DNA of 32,680 nucleotides, from positions 1 to 32,680 of IMG/VR virus record IMGVR_UViG_3300020032_000001. One strand, 5' to 3'. How positions within the stretch are numbered: position 1 is the stretch's first letter; every line of letters begins with the position of its first letter. Positions 4,699 to 12,743 of the stretch are shown here, one piece after another. Below the pieces are notes generated by a model. It was not told the origin of the DNA. It searched no databases and was given only the letters and a program-made list of their open reading frames with translations. The DNA is from a virus. The position numbers and the translations under genes were made by a program.

Positions 4699-5802
4699 AT
4701 GGCTACTGCCAAAGTATTAGCTGAAAAGAAACTAAAATCATTATTAAAAAGCGACTTCGACCCAAAGGACATTCGACTATCAGAGAGCGGCCACAAATGC
4801 AGGCGCTTGCGTGTATTGCGTGCCCTGGGATATGAACCGGCACCGGTAGCCGACGACGTTTTGGGGCTTTTTGAAACCGGCAACGTGTGGGAAGAATGGT
4901 TCCACGGCCTACTGCGTGAGGAATACCCACGAAAGACCCGCACCCAAATGGAGGTCCAAACGCCTTATGGGGCCACCGGACATATGGACGTATGGTTCCC
5001 GAAGCCACCGGCGGACCTGGGGGGCGGTCGTCCGAGGTTCTACGAGTGCAAGGCCGTGCGAGAAGGGGCCAAGTATTACGGCCTACCAAAAGACGAACAC
5101 CTTTACCAGGTGCAGGCATATCACCATTTTGGCCGCAAATACGGCATTAAATGGGGCGGCCAAGTTACAAAACTGCCGGACGACACGGTGGCCGAAATTG
5201 TATATATAATCCGGGAAACCCTGGAAGTAATACCCTACGAAGTGGAATACAGCCCGGATATAGGCGAGGAAATCGAAACCGAAACCAGGCGGGTGCGCCG
5301 CATGATAGACAGCCAGGAAGTGCCGCCGGTGGAACTGGGCCACGCAGAATTCCCTTGTTACTACCAAACCAAGGATTACGAAGTATATTGCCCGTTTTAT
5401 ATATACTGCCACGCCGACGCAGAGAGCCAGGACGACGGCGCCCTGGTAAAAGCCGACCTGGAACCCAAGCTGAAAGAATACGACCAGGTAAGGGGTGAAT
5501 ATTCGGCCAAAAACAAAGCGGCGCAAGCGGTCAAAACCAAAAAGAAAGCGGTTGAAAAAGAATTGGACGGGCTATTTAACGCCCTGGGAACCGACGCCGT
5601 GGTCGCCGGGGACTTAAAGGTCCACAGAACCCTTATTAAAGGCCGTATATACCCGGACGTGGACAAGGCGCTAAAAATGGGCCGCATAGACCTAAAGACC
5701 TATAACGCAATTATGGAAGTGAGCAACAAAGGGTCCGACTATTACCGTTGGTATGTGAAGGACCTATCCAAGAAGAAGGGGGGAAAGAAGAATGGCAAAT
5801 AA
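4699..5802 (+). CDS. Cas4/AddB-like PD-(D/E)xK exonuclease with Fe-S cysteines
   Basis: A 367-residue nuclease of the RecB/Cas4 type. The active-site series is visible: H95 and D97 in GATGHMDVWF, E116 and K118 in FYECKAV, and Q137 in YQVQAYHH. Cysteines C34, C220, C231 and C237 (one early, three late with CX10C and CX5C spacing) resemble the split [4Fe-4S] ligand set of Cas4 and AddB, though the usual CxxC pair is not kept. The C-terminal third is lysine-rich and helical. It overlaps the Rad52-like gene by 11 bases, forming an exonuclease-annealase pair like lambda Exo-Beta. Not a CRISPR Cas4: no array or other cas gene is present. Confidence 0.83.
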   Translation: MATAKVLAEKKLKSLLKSDFDPKDIRLSESGHKCRRLRVLRALGYEPAPVADDVLGLFETGNVWEEWFHGLLREEYPRKTRTQMEVQTPYGATGHMDVWFPKPPADLGGGRPRFYECKAVREGAKYYGLPKDEHLYQVQAYHHFGRKYGIKWGGQVTKLPDDTVAEIVYIIRETLEVIPYEVEYSPDIGEEIETETRRVRRMIDSQEVPPVELGHAEFPCYYQTKDYEVYCPFYIYCHADAESQDDGALVKADLEPKLKEYDQVRGEYSAKNKAAQAVKTKKKAVEKELDGLFNALGTDAVVAGDLKVHRTLIKGRIYPDVDKALKMGRIDLKTYNAIMEVSNKGSDYYRWYVKDLSKKKGGKKNGK

Positions 5803-7997: not shown

Positions 7998-8008
7998 GAG
8001 GGGTCGAA

Positions 8009-8136
8009 GTGGAGAAGCTTACGAAAAGAGAAACGGAAGTTTTAGAAAAAAATTAAAGGAATTAGTGCCATATATGGCGAATATATCATATGGGCGGCAG
8101 GAAAGGAAAATGGTATACTTTGAAAAAGGGGGATAA
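8009..8136 (+). pseudogene. Small gene with -1 frame break at an A7 run
   Basis: After AGGAGGGG, GTG 8009 starts MEKLTKRETEVLEKN and stops at 8054-8056. The -1 frame from 8053 continues LKELVPYMANISYGRQERKM then VYFEKGG to a stop at 8134-8136. The two halves join sensibly (a helical region followed by a basic segment). The junction is A-AAA-AAT (8047-8053), itself a heptamer on which ribosomes can slip by -1. It is therefore a decayed gene, a one-base consensus error, or a programmed frameshift placed just before a stop. Function unknown. Confidence 0.5.
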
Positions 8137-8221: not shown

Positions 8222-9241
8222 ATGGCGAACCCACAGCCAACGGACGCACACTTGCGCATTGCGCACGAAATCCAAGAACAAATCATGGCAAGAGAATTTA
8301 CCAAGCGGCAAAGGAACATTTTGGACCTAATCCTGCGGCTATCCTGGGGGTGCGGCAAAAAATACGCCATTATACCGAACCTTAAAGACTTTGAAGTGGC
8401 CGGGGTTCGCCGCACGCACGTTAAGGCCGAACTGGAATTCCTAGACAAAAGCCGGGTTATTAAGTGGGTCCGTGAAAGTAACTTATTTGTATTCAATAAG
8501 GATTATGACACCTGGGTGGTAAGTTACACCAGGACCCACGACGAAAAGCGCCTGGACGAGTTAATCCACATTAACCTGCAAGATAAAAAGCAAGGGGCAC
8601 CCTATGAAAGCCTAATAAACAACCTTTTGGGTTACCAAAACAGTAACCAAGTTACTGAAACAGGAACCGAGTTACCAAAACAGGAACTGAATTACCAAAA
8701 TAGTAATTCAGTTACTAAAACGGTGGTAAACGGTTACCAAAACAGTAACTTTTCAGAACAGCAACCGCCCGCCACGCCTGGCGTTGAGGGGTCCCTAAAG
8801 AAAGTATTAAATAAAGATATAAATAATATTAGTAGTAGTAGTATAGAGGACAACCCGGTGGAAAACTTTGTGGATAATGTGGACAACCCATTAAAAGACC
8901 CAAAGACTGGCGAATTAGTTAAGTTTTTTTCTGAACAATTTATTATTATGGCAAGCCCTTACCAGGTAGAAAAGGTCCTGGCCTGGACCAAAGAACCGGC
9001 AAACATGGACCCGGACCTGGTGAAATGGGCCATTGAACAGGCGTTGGTCGCAAACGTGCGCCGGTTGGACTATGTGGAAGGTATACTGCGGAACCTTTAC
9101 AACGAGGGCATAACGACCAGGGAGCAAGCGGAAGCGAGAAATAAACAAAAGGAGGGACAAGCCCGTGGAAAACAACAGAAGAAACAGCAAAAGCGAACCG
9201 GAGGGAATAGGAAAGACGTTGGGGACCTTGTTATCGAATAG
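8222..9241 (+). CDS. Replication initiator (phage O-type N-terminus, DnaD-like C-terminus)
   Basis: A 339-residue initiator. Residues 1-105 match the phage replication protein O winged-helix domain (HEIQEQIMAREFTKRQRNIL, LILRLSWGCGKKYA, FEVAGVRRTHVKAELEFLDK). A linker rich in N, Q, T and S (about 130-215) is encoded by the iteron array, as the lambda origin is inside gene O. Residues about 240-305 resemble DnaD/DnaB_2 helicase-loading domains (FFSEQFIIMASPYQVEKVLA, YVEGILRNLYNEGI). The protein should bind the iterons and hand host helicase to the origin with the DnaC-like loader, whose gene overlaps its last 77 bases. Start after AAAGGGGGTTG. Confidence 0.87.
   Translation: MANPQPTDAHLRIAHEIQEQIMAREFTKRQRNILDLILRLSWGCGKKYAIIPNLKDFEVAGVRRTHVKAELEFLDKSRVIKWVRESNLFVFNKDYDTWVVSYTRTHDEKRLDELIHINLQDKKQGAPYESLINNLLGYQNSNQVTETGTELPKQELNYQNSNSVTKTVVNGYQNSNFSEQQPPATPGVEGSLKKVLNKDINNISSSSIEDNPVENFVDNVDNPLKDPKTGELVKFFSEQFIIMASPYQVEKVLAWTKEPANMDPDLVKWAIEQALVANVRRLDYVEGILRNLYNEGITTREQAEARNKQKEGQARGKQQKKQQKRTGGNRKDVGDLVIE
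8631..8749. repeat. Replication origin iterons, six 17-20-bp units
   Basis: Consensus GTTACCAAAACAGTAAC, itself with GTTAC/GTAAC inverted arms. Units start at 8631, 8651, 8671, 8691, 8711 and 8733: four exact 20-base steps and one of 22. Because 20 is not a multiple of three, the repetition is in the DNA, not the protein. Two-turn helical spacing puts all units on one face, as expected for cooperative initiator binding. Units 1, 3 and 6 are closest to consensus; 4 and 5 are degenerate. Position inside the initiator gene parallels lambdoid origins. Confidence 0.85.
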
Positions 9242-10046
9242 CGGCAAGCAAATGGCCGACCAGGAGGACAAGCCCGAACCGACAACCTGCGAGAAGTGCG
9301 GCAGGACCCTGGACTGGTTCCAGGTGGACCTTTTGGGTCGCAAAAAATGGATAATGAAAACCTGCGAATGTATAAAGGCAGAGTGGGAGAAGGAAGAAAA
9401 AAGGCGCAAAGCAGAAGAACGCCGCCGACGCATTGAACGCCTTTTTAGTTTATCACGGCTAGGAACCAGGTTTATGGAAAGTAGATTCGAGAACTGGGAG
9501 CCAATGCCAGGAGCGGAAGCGGCCCTGGACTACGCCCTGGACTTCGCCGAAAACTTCGAGGAATACCAAAAGAGGGGCGAGGGCCTGCTAATATATGGAC
9601 CACCCGGAAACGGCAAAAGCCACCTGGCGGCCGCCGTGGTCCACCGACTGCTGGAAAGAGGGAAGCCGGCCATATTCCAAAGCGTGCCGGACCTGCTGGA
9701 CCGCATACGCCGCACATACGACAGGGACAATTCGACCAATGAAGGTCAAATCATGGCGGCCCTGGAAGAAGCGGACCTGCTAGTGCTAGACGACGCCGGC
9801 GCAGAGCAATGGACCGAATGGGCCGAAAGCAAGCTATATACCATTATAGACCACCGTTACCGCAATAAAAAGCCCATTTTTGTAACGACCAACACCGACG
9901 TGGAGGAACTGGAAAGCGCCGTCGGGTTCCGTGCTTACGACCGACTGCTGGAAATGTGCTTACTGGTGAAAAACAGCGGCGAGAGTTACAGAAGGATAAT
10001 TGCAAGGCGTCGCATACAGAGCATTAAGGAGGGGCGCAGAAAATGA
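9165..10046 (+). CDS. DnaC-like helicase loader (AAA+ ATPase)
   Basis: A 293-residue protein starting at GTG 9165 after AAAAGGAGGGAC, inside the initiator gene. Residues 42-69 form a four-cysteine zinc knuckle (CEKC, then CEC). A very basic helix (KRRKAEERRRRIERLF) precedes the AAA+ core: Walker A GPPGNGKS at 145-152, Walker B LLVLDDAGAE near 200-209, then IFVTTNTDVEEL (sensor 1) and an arginine-rich end with RRIIARRRI. It loads the host replicative helicase at the iteron origin; no helicase or polymerase is encoded, so the host supplies them. The stop overlaps the next start (ATGA). Confidence 0.9.
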   Translation: MENNRRNSKSEPEGIGKTLGTLLSNSGKQMADQEDKPEPTTCEKCGRTLDWFQVDLLGRKKWIMKTCECIKAEWEKEEKRRKAEERRRRIERLFSLSRLGTRFMESRFENWEPMPGAEAALDYALDFAENFEEYQKRGEGLLIYGPPGNGKSHLAAAVVHRLLERGKPAIFQSVPDLLDRIRRTYDRDNSTNEGQIMAALEEADLLVLDDAGAEQWTEWAESKLYTIIDHRYRNKKPIFVTTNTDVEELESAVGFRAYDRLLEMCLLVKNSGESYRRIIARRRIQSIKEGRRK

Positions 10047-10525: not shown

Positions 10526-11101
10526 ATGCAAGAAAGGCAAATACCTATTTATCTAATTCACCCTTACAGAGGGAAAGGCAGGCCGGGAGAATATGCCGAG
10601 AACCTGCAAAAAACCATTGATATAGCCCAAGAGATACAGGCGGCCCTGCCGCAGGTATTAGTAATTAGCCCGGTCCTGGCCCTGGGGCCTATTAATGACG
10701 AGAACCTGCACCCAAAAATTAGAGAGCAGGCCCTAATCAAATGTAAAAACCTTATGGAAATTGTATACCTGGCAGGGGGTGAAGCCTGGGCCTTTGGGGA
10801 CGTCGCAAACTCTAAAGGGTGCGGCATGGAAATGCACCACGCCGGCGCCCTGGGTATGCGCCTTCGTATTGACCCGGACCCGTGGGCGTTGGAAACAATA
10901 CAATGTTACGACCACGCCTGGGTCCACCTGGGAGAAACCACACCAAGCGGCAAAATCCTTTATAGGTGCGCAAAATGCGGGATAACAGACACAGTGCCAG
11001 TAAAGCCAAAGCATGAGGATAGACCATGCAGACCCGTAATAAGGGTGGCCCATTTTGCCACCTGCCCGCAGGCGTCGCAATTTAGAAGGGGGAAGAAATA
11101 A
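10526..11101 (+). CDS. Nucleoside-deoxyribosyltransferase-like protein with zinc ribbon
   Basis: A 191-residue protein after AAGGAGGAATG. Residues 1-120 follow the Rossmann-like pattern of the DUF4406/2-deoxyribosyltransferase-like group: an opening strand IPIYLIHPYRG, a long helix ENLQKTIDIAQEIQAALP, the strand VLVISPVLALG, then AWAFGDVANSKGCGMEMHHA with acidic/His residues. The C-terminus adds CAKCG and two later cysteines, likely a zinc ribbon. Related proteins are linked to nucleotide metabolism or base hypermodification; whether this copy is catalytic cannot be told. Confidence 0.72.
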   Translation: MQERQIPIYLIHPYRGKGRPGEYAENLQKTIDIAQEIQAALPQVLVISPVLALGPINDENLHPKIREQALIKCKNLMEIVYLAGGEAWAFGDVANSKGCGMEMHHAGALGMRLRIDPDPWALETIQCYDHAWVHLGETTPSGKILYRCAKCGITDTVPVKPKHEDRPCRPVIRVAHFATCPQASQFRRGKK

Positions 11102-11202
11102 TGGACAGAATAACCGAGAGGGTGGCCGAGGAAGTGGCCGACGTGGAAATCATGCTGGCCCAGGTCAAAATCCTGCTGGATATATTCGCCGACAAGCCAT
11201 AA
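11101..11202 (+). CDS. 33-residue protein resembling a MazG-like C-terminal helix
   Basis: Starts in a TAATG overlap and reads MDRITERVAEEVADVEIMLA, then QVKILLDIFADKP. The EEVADVEIMLAQ pattern is like the helix with metal-binding E/D residues at the end of phage MazG-like pyrophosphohydrolases, but the upstream part of such a domain is missing. It may be a remnant or a real short partner protein. Coupling to a deoxyribosyltransferase-like gene is consistent with nucleotide metabolism. Confidence 0.55.
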   Translation: MDRITERVAEEVADVEIMLAQVKILLDIFADKP

Positions 11203-11217: not shown

Positions 11218-11254
11218 ATTACCAAAACAGTAACCGGGTTACCAAAACAGGAAC
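11218..11254. repeat. Two iteron copies in the ssb leader
   Basis: ATTACCAAAACAGTAAC (11218-11234) and GTTACCAAAACAGGAAC (11238-11254) match the origin iterons and keep their exact 20-base step. They lie in the 76-base gap between the small MazG-like gene and ssb, ending 24 bases before the ssb GTG. They may let the initiator control ssb or act as a second origin element. Confidence 0.85.
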
Positions 11255-11278: not shown

Positions 11279-11668
11279 GTGATAAATATTTGCGTGCAAG
11301 TGGGACGACTTACACGGGACCCGGAACTGCGCTACACCGGGAGCGGAAACGCCATTGCAACCTTTACCCTGGCCGTTGACCGTGAATACACCGACGCCCA
11401 GGGAAACAGGCCGACCGACTTTATACCGGTGAAATGCTGGCGGAAGCTGGCCGAAACCGTCGCCAACCACCTAAACAAAGGGCGCCTGGTATGTGTGGTC
11501 GGGTCCTGGGAAGTGGAAGAATGGGAGAAGGACGGACAGCGCAGGCGCAGGGACATATTAAAAGCCGAAACCGTTAAGTTTTTGGACTGGCCGAAAGACC
11601 AGGGCCAAGGCGGTGGAGATTATAACGACGGCTTTATGCCCGTTGACGACGACGACGTGCCGTTCTAG
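11279..11668 (+). CDS. ssb: Single-stranded DNA-binding protein
   Basis: A 129-residue SSB with the standard OB fold: VGRLTRDPELRYTGSGNAIA, FTLAVDREY, DFIPVKCWRKLAETVANHL and GRLVCVVGSWEVEEWE. It ends in the acidic tip DDDDVPF, which in SSB family proteins recruits replication and repair partners. Starts at GTG 11279 after GAAGGGGGTT. It would coat single strands made by the exonuclease and by replication. The iteron pair just upstream suggests control by the initiator. Confidence 0.95.
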   Translation: MINICVQVGRLTRDPELRYTGSGNAIATFTLAVDREYTDAQGNRPTDFIPVKCWRKLAETVANHLNKGRLVCVVGSWEVEEWEKDGQRRRRDILKAETVKFLDWPKDQGQGGGDYNDGFMPVDDDDVPF

Positions 11669-12020: not shown

Positions 12021-12219
12021 ATGCGACGACTGCGGCGCCAGGGCCACCCATAGAATGGTGGGGCCGCTACCAAGCGGGGACCAGGTGCGCCGCTATCTAT
12101 GCAAAGAGTGTCGGGACCTATGGGTCCGTATACAAAAGAACCTGGACCAGGTGGCGGGTAAATATCCAAAAGAGCACCTGGCCGTTGTGGAGGGCGCCAG
12201 GTTCGAGAAATTGAAATGA
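11974..12219 (+). CDS. Zinc-finger protein, 81 residues
   Basis: Starts at GTG 11974. A basic N-terminus (MPKKWKPRKKPRTNRK) precedes CDDCGARATH and YLCKECRDLW, a complete CxxC...CxxC zinc ribbon, then a helix. The basic arm and ribbon suit a nucleic-acid-binding protein. It overlaps its left neighbour by 47 bases and the RecU gene by four (ATGA). A later start is possible but would remove the basic arm. Confidence 0.66.
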   Translation: MPKKWKPRKKPRTNRKCDDCGARATHRMVGPLPSGDQVRRYLCKECRDLWVRIQKNLDQVAGKYPKEHLAVVEGARFEKLK

Positions 12220-12743
12220 GCCGCAAAAGACATTTAGGCGACGCCCTGGAGAACTTAATAAACTGGTCCTGCCGCCAATACCAGGCCCAGGGCGTTGCCA
12301 ATATTCAAAAATACCCGACACCGTATAAAATCATAGGCCAGGACAAGCGCCGCAGGTGCCTGCTGGCCGTGCCGGAGGAAAAGGCCGGCGTGGACTATGT
12401 GGGCGAATACGGCGGCCGGCCCTTCGCAATGGAAGCGAAAAAGACAGAGAACCGGACCCGCTACCCGTTGGACCCGTGGAACCGGGAGAAGCACCAAAGG
12501 GAATTCCTGGACCGGTGGAACGGACTGGCCTTTTATCTTATATCATTTTGGAGCCTGGGGGAACATTACCTGGTCCCGTGGGCGGAATACAAGAAATGGC
12601 ACCAGCAAGCCCAGGAAGGCGGCAGAAAAAGCATACCGCTTGACTGGTTCCGGGAGAACATGCCCAGGATCAAGGAAGGCGGCAGGGTGGCCCTGGACTT
12701 TTTGGCCGCCGTGGACAAGTTGGTGGAAAAGGGGGCGTGGTAA
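12216..12743 (+). CDS. recU: RecU-like Holliday junction resolvase
   Basis: A 175-residue protein with the RecU core: GVDYVGEYGGRPFAMEAKKT holds D60, E73 and K75 of the PD-(D/E)xK site, followed by KHQREFLDRWNGLAFYLISF and the YLVPW strand. Slightly short compared with bacterial RecU because the N-terminal arm is reduced. It should resolve recombination and replication junctions before packaging. Context with the exonuclease, Rad52-like protein and SSB fits. Starts by ATGA overlap. Confidence 0.9.
   Translation: MSRKRHLGDALENLINWSCRQYQAQGVANIQKYPTPYKIIGQDKRRRCLLAVPEEKAGVDYVGEYGGRPFAMEAKKTENRTRYPLDPWNREKHQREFLDRWNGLAFYLISFWSLGEHYLVPWAEYKKWHQQAQEGGRKSIPLDWFRENMPRIKEGGRVALDFLAAVDKLVEKGAW

Follow-up and report, generated by a model that had tools for sequence, protein, structure and literature searches.

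Two origin-type iterons before ssb in a phage with a lambda-type O initiator: a candidate second binding locus

Introduction

In iteron plasmids, Rep sites located outside the core origin control expression or copy number, through extra iterons, autoregulation and handcuffing. In bacteriophage lambda, an excess of the initiator O lowers transcription through ori, which was attributed to the O-some hindering the elongating polymerase (PMC3985674). According to another lambda study, handcuffing could not account for one iteron-dependent replication-inhibition phenotype (PMC3349717). In SPP1, a Firmicutes phage of Bacillus subtilis, the initiator G38P is also bound at a second, distant locus, oriR, where it was proposed to stall the replication fork and so to switch replication from the theta to the concatemer mode (PMC3485210, PMC6316719).

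Here we describe a linear virus record of 32,680 nt (IMG/VR IMGVR_UViG_3300020032_000001, positions 1 to 32,680; "the window" denotes this entire stretch) in which a pair of origin-type iterons lies directly before ssb. It is instructive to compare the general layout with the systems above. The window and lambda have in common an O-type initiator (PF04492), palindromic iterons with a step of about 20 bp within the O gene, A+T-rich neighbouring DNA and a helicase loader gene that comes next, and the iterons of the two phages have a CAAAAC-type core in common. There are two differences: the loader of the window is DnaC-like, unlike that of lambda, and lambda has no O site outside its array even if 4 mismatches are allowed, whereas the window has the pair at ssb. 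As in SPP1, the origin lies in the initiator gene and there is another locus, away from that gene, with sites of the same initiator. The comparison with SPP1 concerns layout only: oriR is origin-like, AT-rich and situated 12-13 kb from oriL in the late region, whereas the pair is 2.5 kb from the origin, next to ssb, and not accompanied by AT-rich DNA. The pair also differs from the plasmid cases, in that no recognisable promoter overlaps it and its neighbour is ssb rather than the initiator gene.

A sequence-only reading of the window knew of no standard precedent for such an arrangement. This is too strong, since the SPP1 initiator is bound at a second, distant locus, but the narrower statement stands: oriR is not at ssb, and no other example of initiator sites at ssb was found in the collections and the open-access literature that we searched. 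Initiator sites at a second locus were thus known already from SPP1, and what appears to be new, as far as these collections and this literature go, is the presence of O-type sites at ssb. Any action of O at these sites would mean that the phage initiator controls its own SSB supply, or the progress of the fork, via origin-type sites outside the origin.

Results and Discussion

The replication gene cluster and the iteron pair

The early region of the window is a co-directional, tightly packed replication cluster that comprises, in this order, the O-type initiator, the DnaC-like loader, two more genes, a 33-aa frame, ssb, several small genes and RecU (Table 1). A weakly Rad52-like protein is encoded in the window besides RecU and SSB. 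The palindromic iterons lie inside the initiator gene and next to A+T-rich DNA, i.e. the arrangement is that of a lambda-type O origin, and by analogy with the lambda layout the A+T-rich stretch is likely to be the unwinding region.

Table 1. Coordinates of the replication genes, the origin and the extra iterons in the window.
Feature	Position	Strand	Evidence or remark
O-type initiator	8222..9241	+	Phage_rep_O N-terminal PF04492 5e-19; DnaB_2 C-terminal PF07261 3e-13; phrog_16826 1e-53
Origin iteron array within O gene	8631..8749	+	copies 8631, 8651, 8671, 8691, 8711 (degenerate), 8733
A+T-rich stretch adjoining array	8780..8869	.	G+C 0.28-0.30
DnaC-like helicase loader	9165..10046	+	phrog_50 6e-78
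33-aa open frame, immediately preceding the gap with the pair	11101..11202	+	read from sequence
Extra O-type iteron 1, ATTACCAAAACAGTAAC	11218..11234	+	repeat search, pattern scans; 23.3 bits
Extra O-type iteron 2, GTTACCAAAACAGGAAC	11238..11254	+	repeat search, pattern scans; 29.0 bits
ssb, single-stranded DNA-binding protein	11279..11668	+	PF00436 2e-27; phrog_44 2e-45; GTG start at 11279
RecU Holliday-junction resolvase	12216..12743	+	PF03838 9e-35

Between 8222 and 13406 there is a single sizeable gap, of 76 bp, the other genes overlapping or being separated by about 12 bp or less, and this gap of the replication operon is filled by the pair. The sites directly precede the ribosome-binding site of ssb. 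Repeat search and pattern scans bear out the description given by the sequence-only reading, i.e. two 17-base units at the 20-base step of the origin array, 2.5 kb from the origin (about 2.47 kb from its last iteron) and with 24 bases between iteron 2 and the GTG start of ssb. Its identification of the units as origin-type iterons, and of the neighbouring gene as ssb, is upheld by a weight matrix derived from other phages and by the PF00436 and phrog_44 matches. Iteron 2 of the pair is identical to the third origin iteron (8671), and iteron 1 is one base off the origin iterons 8631 and 8733.

A chance origin of the pair can be ruled out on two grounds. A scan with a 19-base consensus, allowing up to 3 mismatches, returned 5 matches vs 0.02 expected in shuffled sequences. 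The weight matrix was trained exclusively on other GTTAC-class phages, 14 in number, with 64 in-gene iterons (median score of these training iterons 28.4 bits, 5% quantile 19.8). In the 32.7 kb window it puts the two sites of the pair in 3rd and 6th place, the remaining places in the top six being taken by the origin copies 8733, 8631, 8671 and 8651. Origin copy 8691 follows with 13.5 bits, and outside the iterons no place scores above 12.3. As a matrix from other phages picks out the pair, the two sites are recognisable as O iterons without reference to the window's own origin.

The O protein as a candidate reader of the iterons

The model of the N-terminal domain of O has a winged-helix-like topology with a recognition helix at residues 64-76 (pLDDT 89), and a Foldseek comparison of the O model with the PDB gave weak matches to winged-helix proteins. 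For 42 O proteins whose genes contain palindromic sites, the iteron arms fall into several classes (GTTAC, CTTAC, GTTGG, CTTCT, GTTCC and others). The second position of the predicted recognition helix is Glu in all ten proteins of the CTTAC/CTTAG/CTTGA/TTTAC types; the helix carries Lys/Arg in most O proteins of the GTTAC class and DKSD in most of the GTTGG class. The helix residues thus change in step with the iteron arms, which links O to the iterons and supports the view that O reads the arms, even though the covariation is inflated by shared ancestry. It may be added that residues 64-66 of the window O protein (encoded within 8222-8581) belong to the positions that track the arm class across the 42 proteins, and we speculate that this could be a specificity code for O-type initiators.

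Conservation of the pair among relatives

A near-identical contig of 12.3 kb (L030, 99.5% identical over 12.1 kb) retains the pair unchanged. The two sequences differ at a single base of the ribosome-binding site and by an indel of about 255 bases that lies about 180 bases upstream. At the indel (window 10526-11101, L030 2534-3357) the contig has two genes, of 190 and 94 aa, and the window has one 191-aa frame that ends like the 94-aa protein, which makes the window look like a deletion fusion. A weak site at 8018 of the window (11.4 bits) was discarded, as it is not conserved in L030. The stretch 8004-8040, just upstream of the O gene, has 18 differences from L030 in 37 bases, the rest of the alignment being more than 99% identical; possibly this is a mosaic junction.

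Extra sites of the phage's own type, with at most 2 mismatches, were found only in the window, its twin L030 and L043 among 65 distinct O loci, which were counted if they had at least 3 in-gene repeat copies each and in which some de novo repeats of distant members may be untrue iterons. A two-mismatch extra site in L240 apparently lies in a coding region and looks like chance. No site clearly outside the array was seen in whole-contig scans of 13 GTTAC-type records other than the twin, nor was a real-looking extra site present in 10 further prophages, most of which come from the class to which a Desulfotomaculaceae genome belongs. Altogether, some 70 further phages and prophages that have O-type repeats inside the gene lack the pair. 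Among these, a recognisable ssb is within reach only in L011/L012, L028 (phage Jimmer2), L029 (phage GBK2) and L081, none of which has sites there, so the comparison at ssb amounts to about four independent phages. The pair is likewise missing from the 293 bases upstream of the nearest viral SSB outside the twin (L033), and searches by helicase loader and by terminase recovered the near-identical contig alone.

General conservation of the pair is therefore rejected: among the relatives surveyed only L030 has it, and on these comparisons the pair is lineage-specific, being confined to one phage lineage. The sequence-only reading had proposed conservation in relatives as a check, and absence from all relatives with the origin array as a refutation. 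The pair is kept in the 99.5%-identical contig and missing from all other relatives that have the array, but this absence counts as a refutation only in part because few of those relatives carry ssb nearby.

Possible roles of O at the pair

We take the pair to be a genuine second, small O-binding cluster that, in one lineage, came to occupy the one real gap of the operon, and judging from the sites themselves it is likely that O binds there. A consensus scan found no sigma-70 promoter between the upstream genes and ssb, and with a promoter matrix of the sigma-70 type only, the best candidates near the pair rank 63rd or lower in the window. With no conspicuous sigma-70 promoter near ssb, transcription of ssb probably enters from upstream, crossing the origin and then the pair. 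In the reading that we favour, if tentatively and at somewhat less than even chances, the main effect of O at the pair would be a roadblock to this transcription. O dimers would fill both sites once O has built up, and the bound complex would slow RNA polymerase reading into ssb-recU, which would amount to a delayed negative feedback. The sequence-only reading had likewise suggested that the initiator might switch ssb expression with replication. A roadblock is favoured because lambda O cuts expression downstream of ori in vivo (PMC3985674) and because the surroundings of the pair show no conspicuous promoter. Two points speak against it: the origin array precedes the pair in this operon and would itself already obstruct the polymerase, and two sites may be too weak to stop it.

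A classical promoter operator is unlikely, as the stretch leading from the upstream genes to ssb shows no recognisable sigma-70 promoter, and we rejected it. A second complete replication origin would account for two iterons at the origin spacing, yet there are only two of them and the A+T-rich unwinding element is missing (G+C 0.42-0.53 around the pair vs 0.28-0.30 at the main origin), so this possibility was dismissed as well and has hardly any probability left. An RNA leader acting on ssb translation is very improbable: although the predicted fold does put iteron 2 into a hairpin (CCGGGTT...AACCCGG) that precedes the ssb ribosome-binding site, the iteron palindrome accounts for most of that hairpin, the fold is no better than that of shuffled sequences (z -0.68) and an Rfam search at the pair gave no match, on which grounds an RNA element was rejected.

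Two further explanations allow for binding of O. The sites may be idle, i.e. an origin segment was copied before ssb, or the sites arose there, and nothing depends on O at this place beyond, perhaps, a slight titration of O. The lineage-specific occurrence agrees with this, as does a 37-base match of the pair to origin copies 1-2 at 89%, with the GTAAC and GGAAC ends in equal order. On the other hand, both cores are perfect and iteron 2 is closer to the consensus than origin copy 2, and the similarity is bounded by the outer arms, the first of site 1 and the last of site 2, the spacer and the flanks being different. This is odd for a fresh duplication and fits selected sites better than a copy that was dragged along; selection on the pair is not measurable, however, as the pair is missing from all but one near-identical relative. 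We regard idle sites as possible but somewhat unlikely. A role in replication appears unlikely. Here O at the pair would stall the fork and switch theta to concatemer replication or, as the sequence-only reading suggested, loop to the origin (handcuffing) and so limit initiation. SPP1 provides the precedent of one initiator at two loci (PMC3485210, PMC6316719), and RecU, the weakly Rad52-like protein and SSB would be parts for recombination-dependent replication. However, the pair, unlike oriR, has no AT-rich region and is just 2.5 kb away, the other relatives do without it, and handcuffing, which could not account for one inhibition phenotype in lambda (PMC3349717), finds no support here.

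Promoter-linked sites in two sister phages

Own-type sites outside the origin were also seen in L043 and L050, sister phages of the CTTAC class whose O domains are 66% identical. A single own-type palindrome in L043 (at 4699; stretch 4699-4767) lies exactly 16 nt upstream of a strong consensus promoter, TTGACA-N16-TACAAT, before a methylase-like gene, and one in L050 (at 9939; stretch 9939-10010, which corresponds to the minus strand of L247) lies exactly 16 nt upstream of another, TTGACA-N16-TAAAAT, before a small-terminase-like gene; both gene names come from reading the translations. The interval between palindrome and promoter differs in sequence in the two phages, but the spacing is equal. 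A search of the whole collection for own-type palindromes located 16 nt ahead of TTGACA returned these two cases and no convincing third one; its six other matches, which lack a detectable O gene, are about as many as chance would give.

These arrangements suggest that O-type sites may be usable at promoters in the O-type initiator family, though another regulator may have the same target. One may go further and propose that O is also a sequence-specific transcription regulator that would couple replication or late genes to the level of the initiator, at ssb in the window and at the promoter-linked sites in the sister phages; we consider this broader proposal improbable. The survey nevertheless provides a comparison set, i.e. 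dozens of O proteins with co-varying helix and iterons and two sister phages with promoter-linked sites, which makes moonlighting of O-type initiators as transcription regulators directly testable. The L050 phage has one more palindrome, GGGACTTACTGAACCGGTAAGTCCC, with an iteron-like centre, which lies between two minus-strand genes (L248, 1012-1028; contig position 4211-4227).
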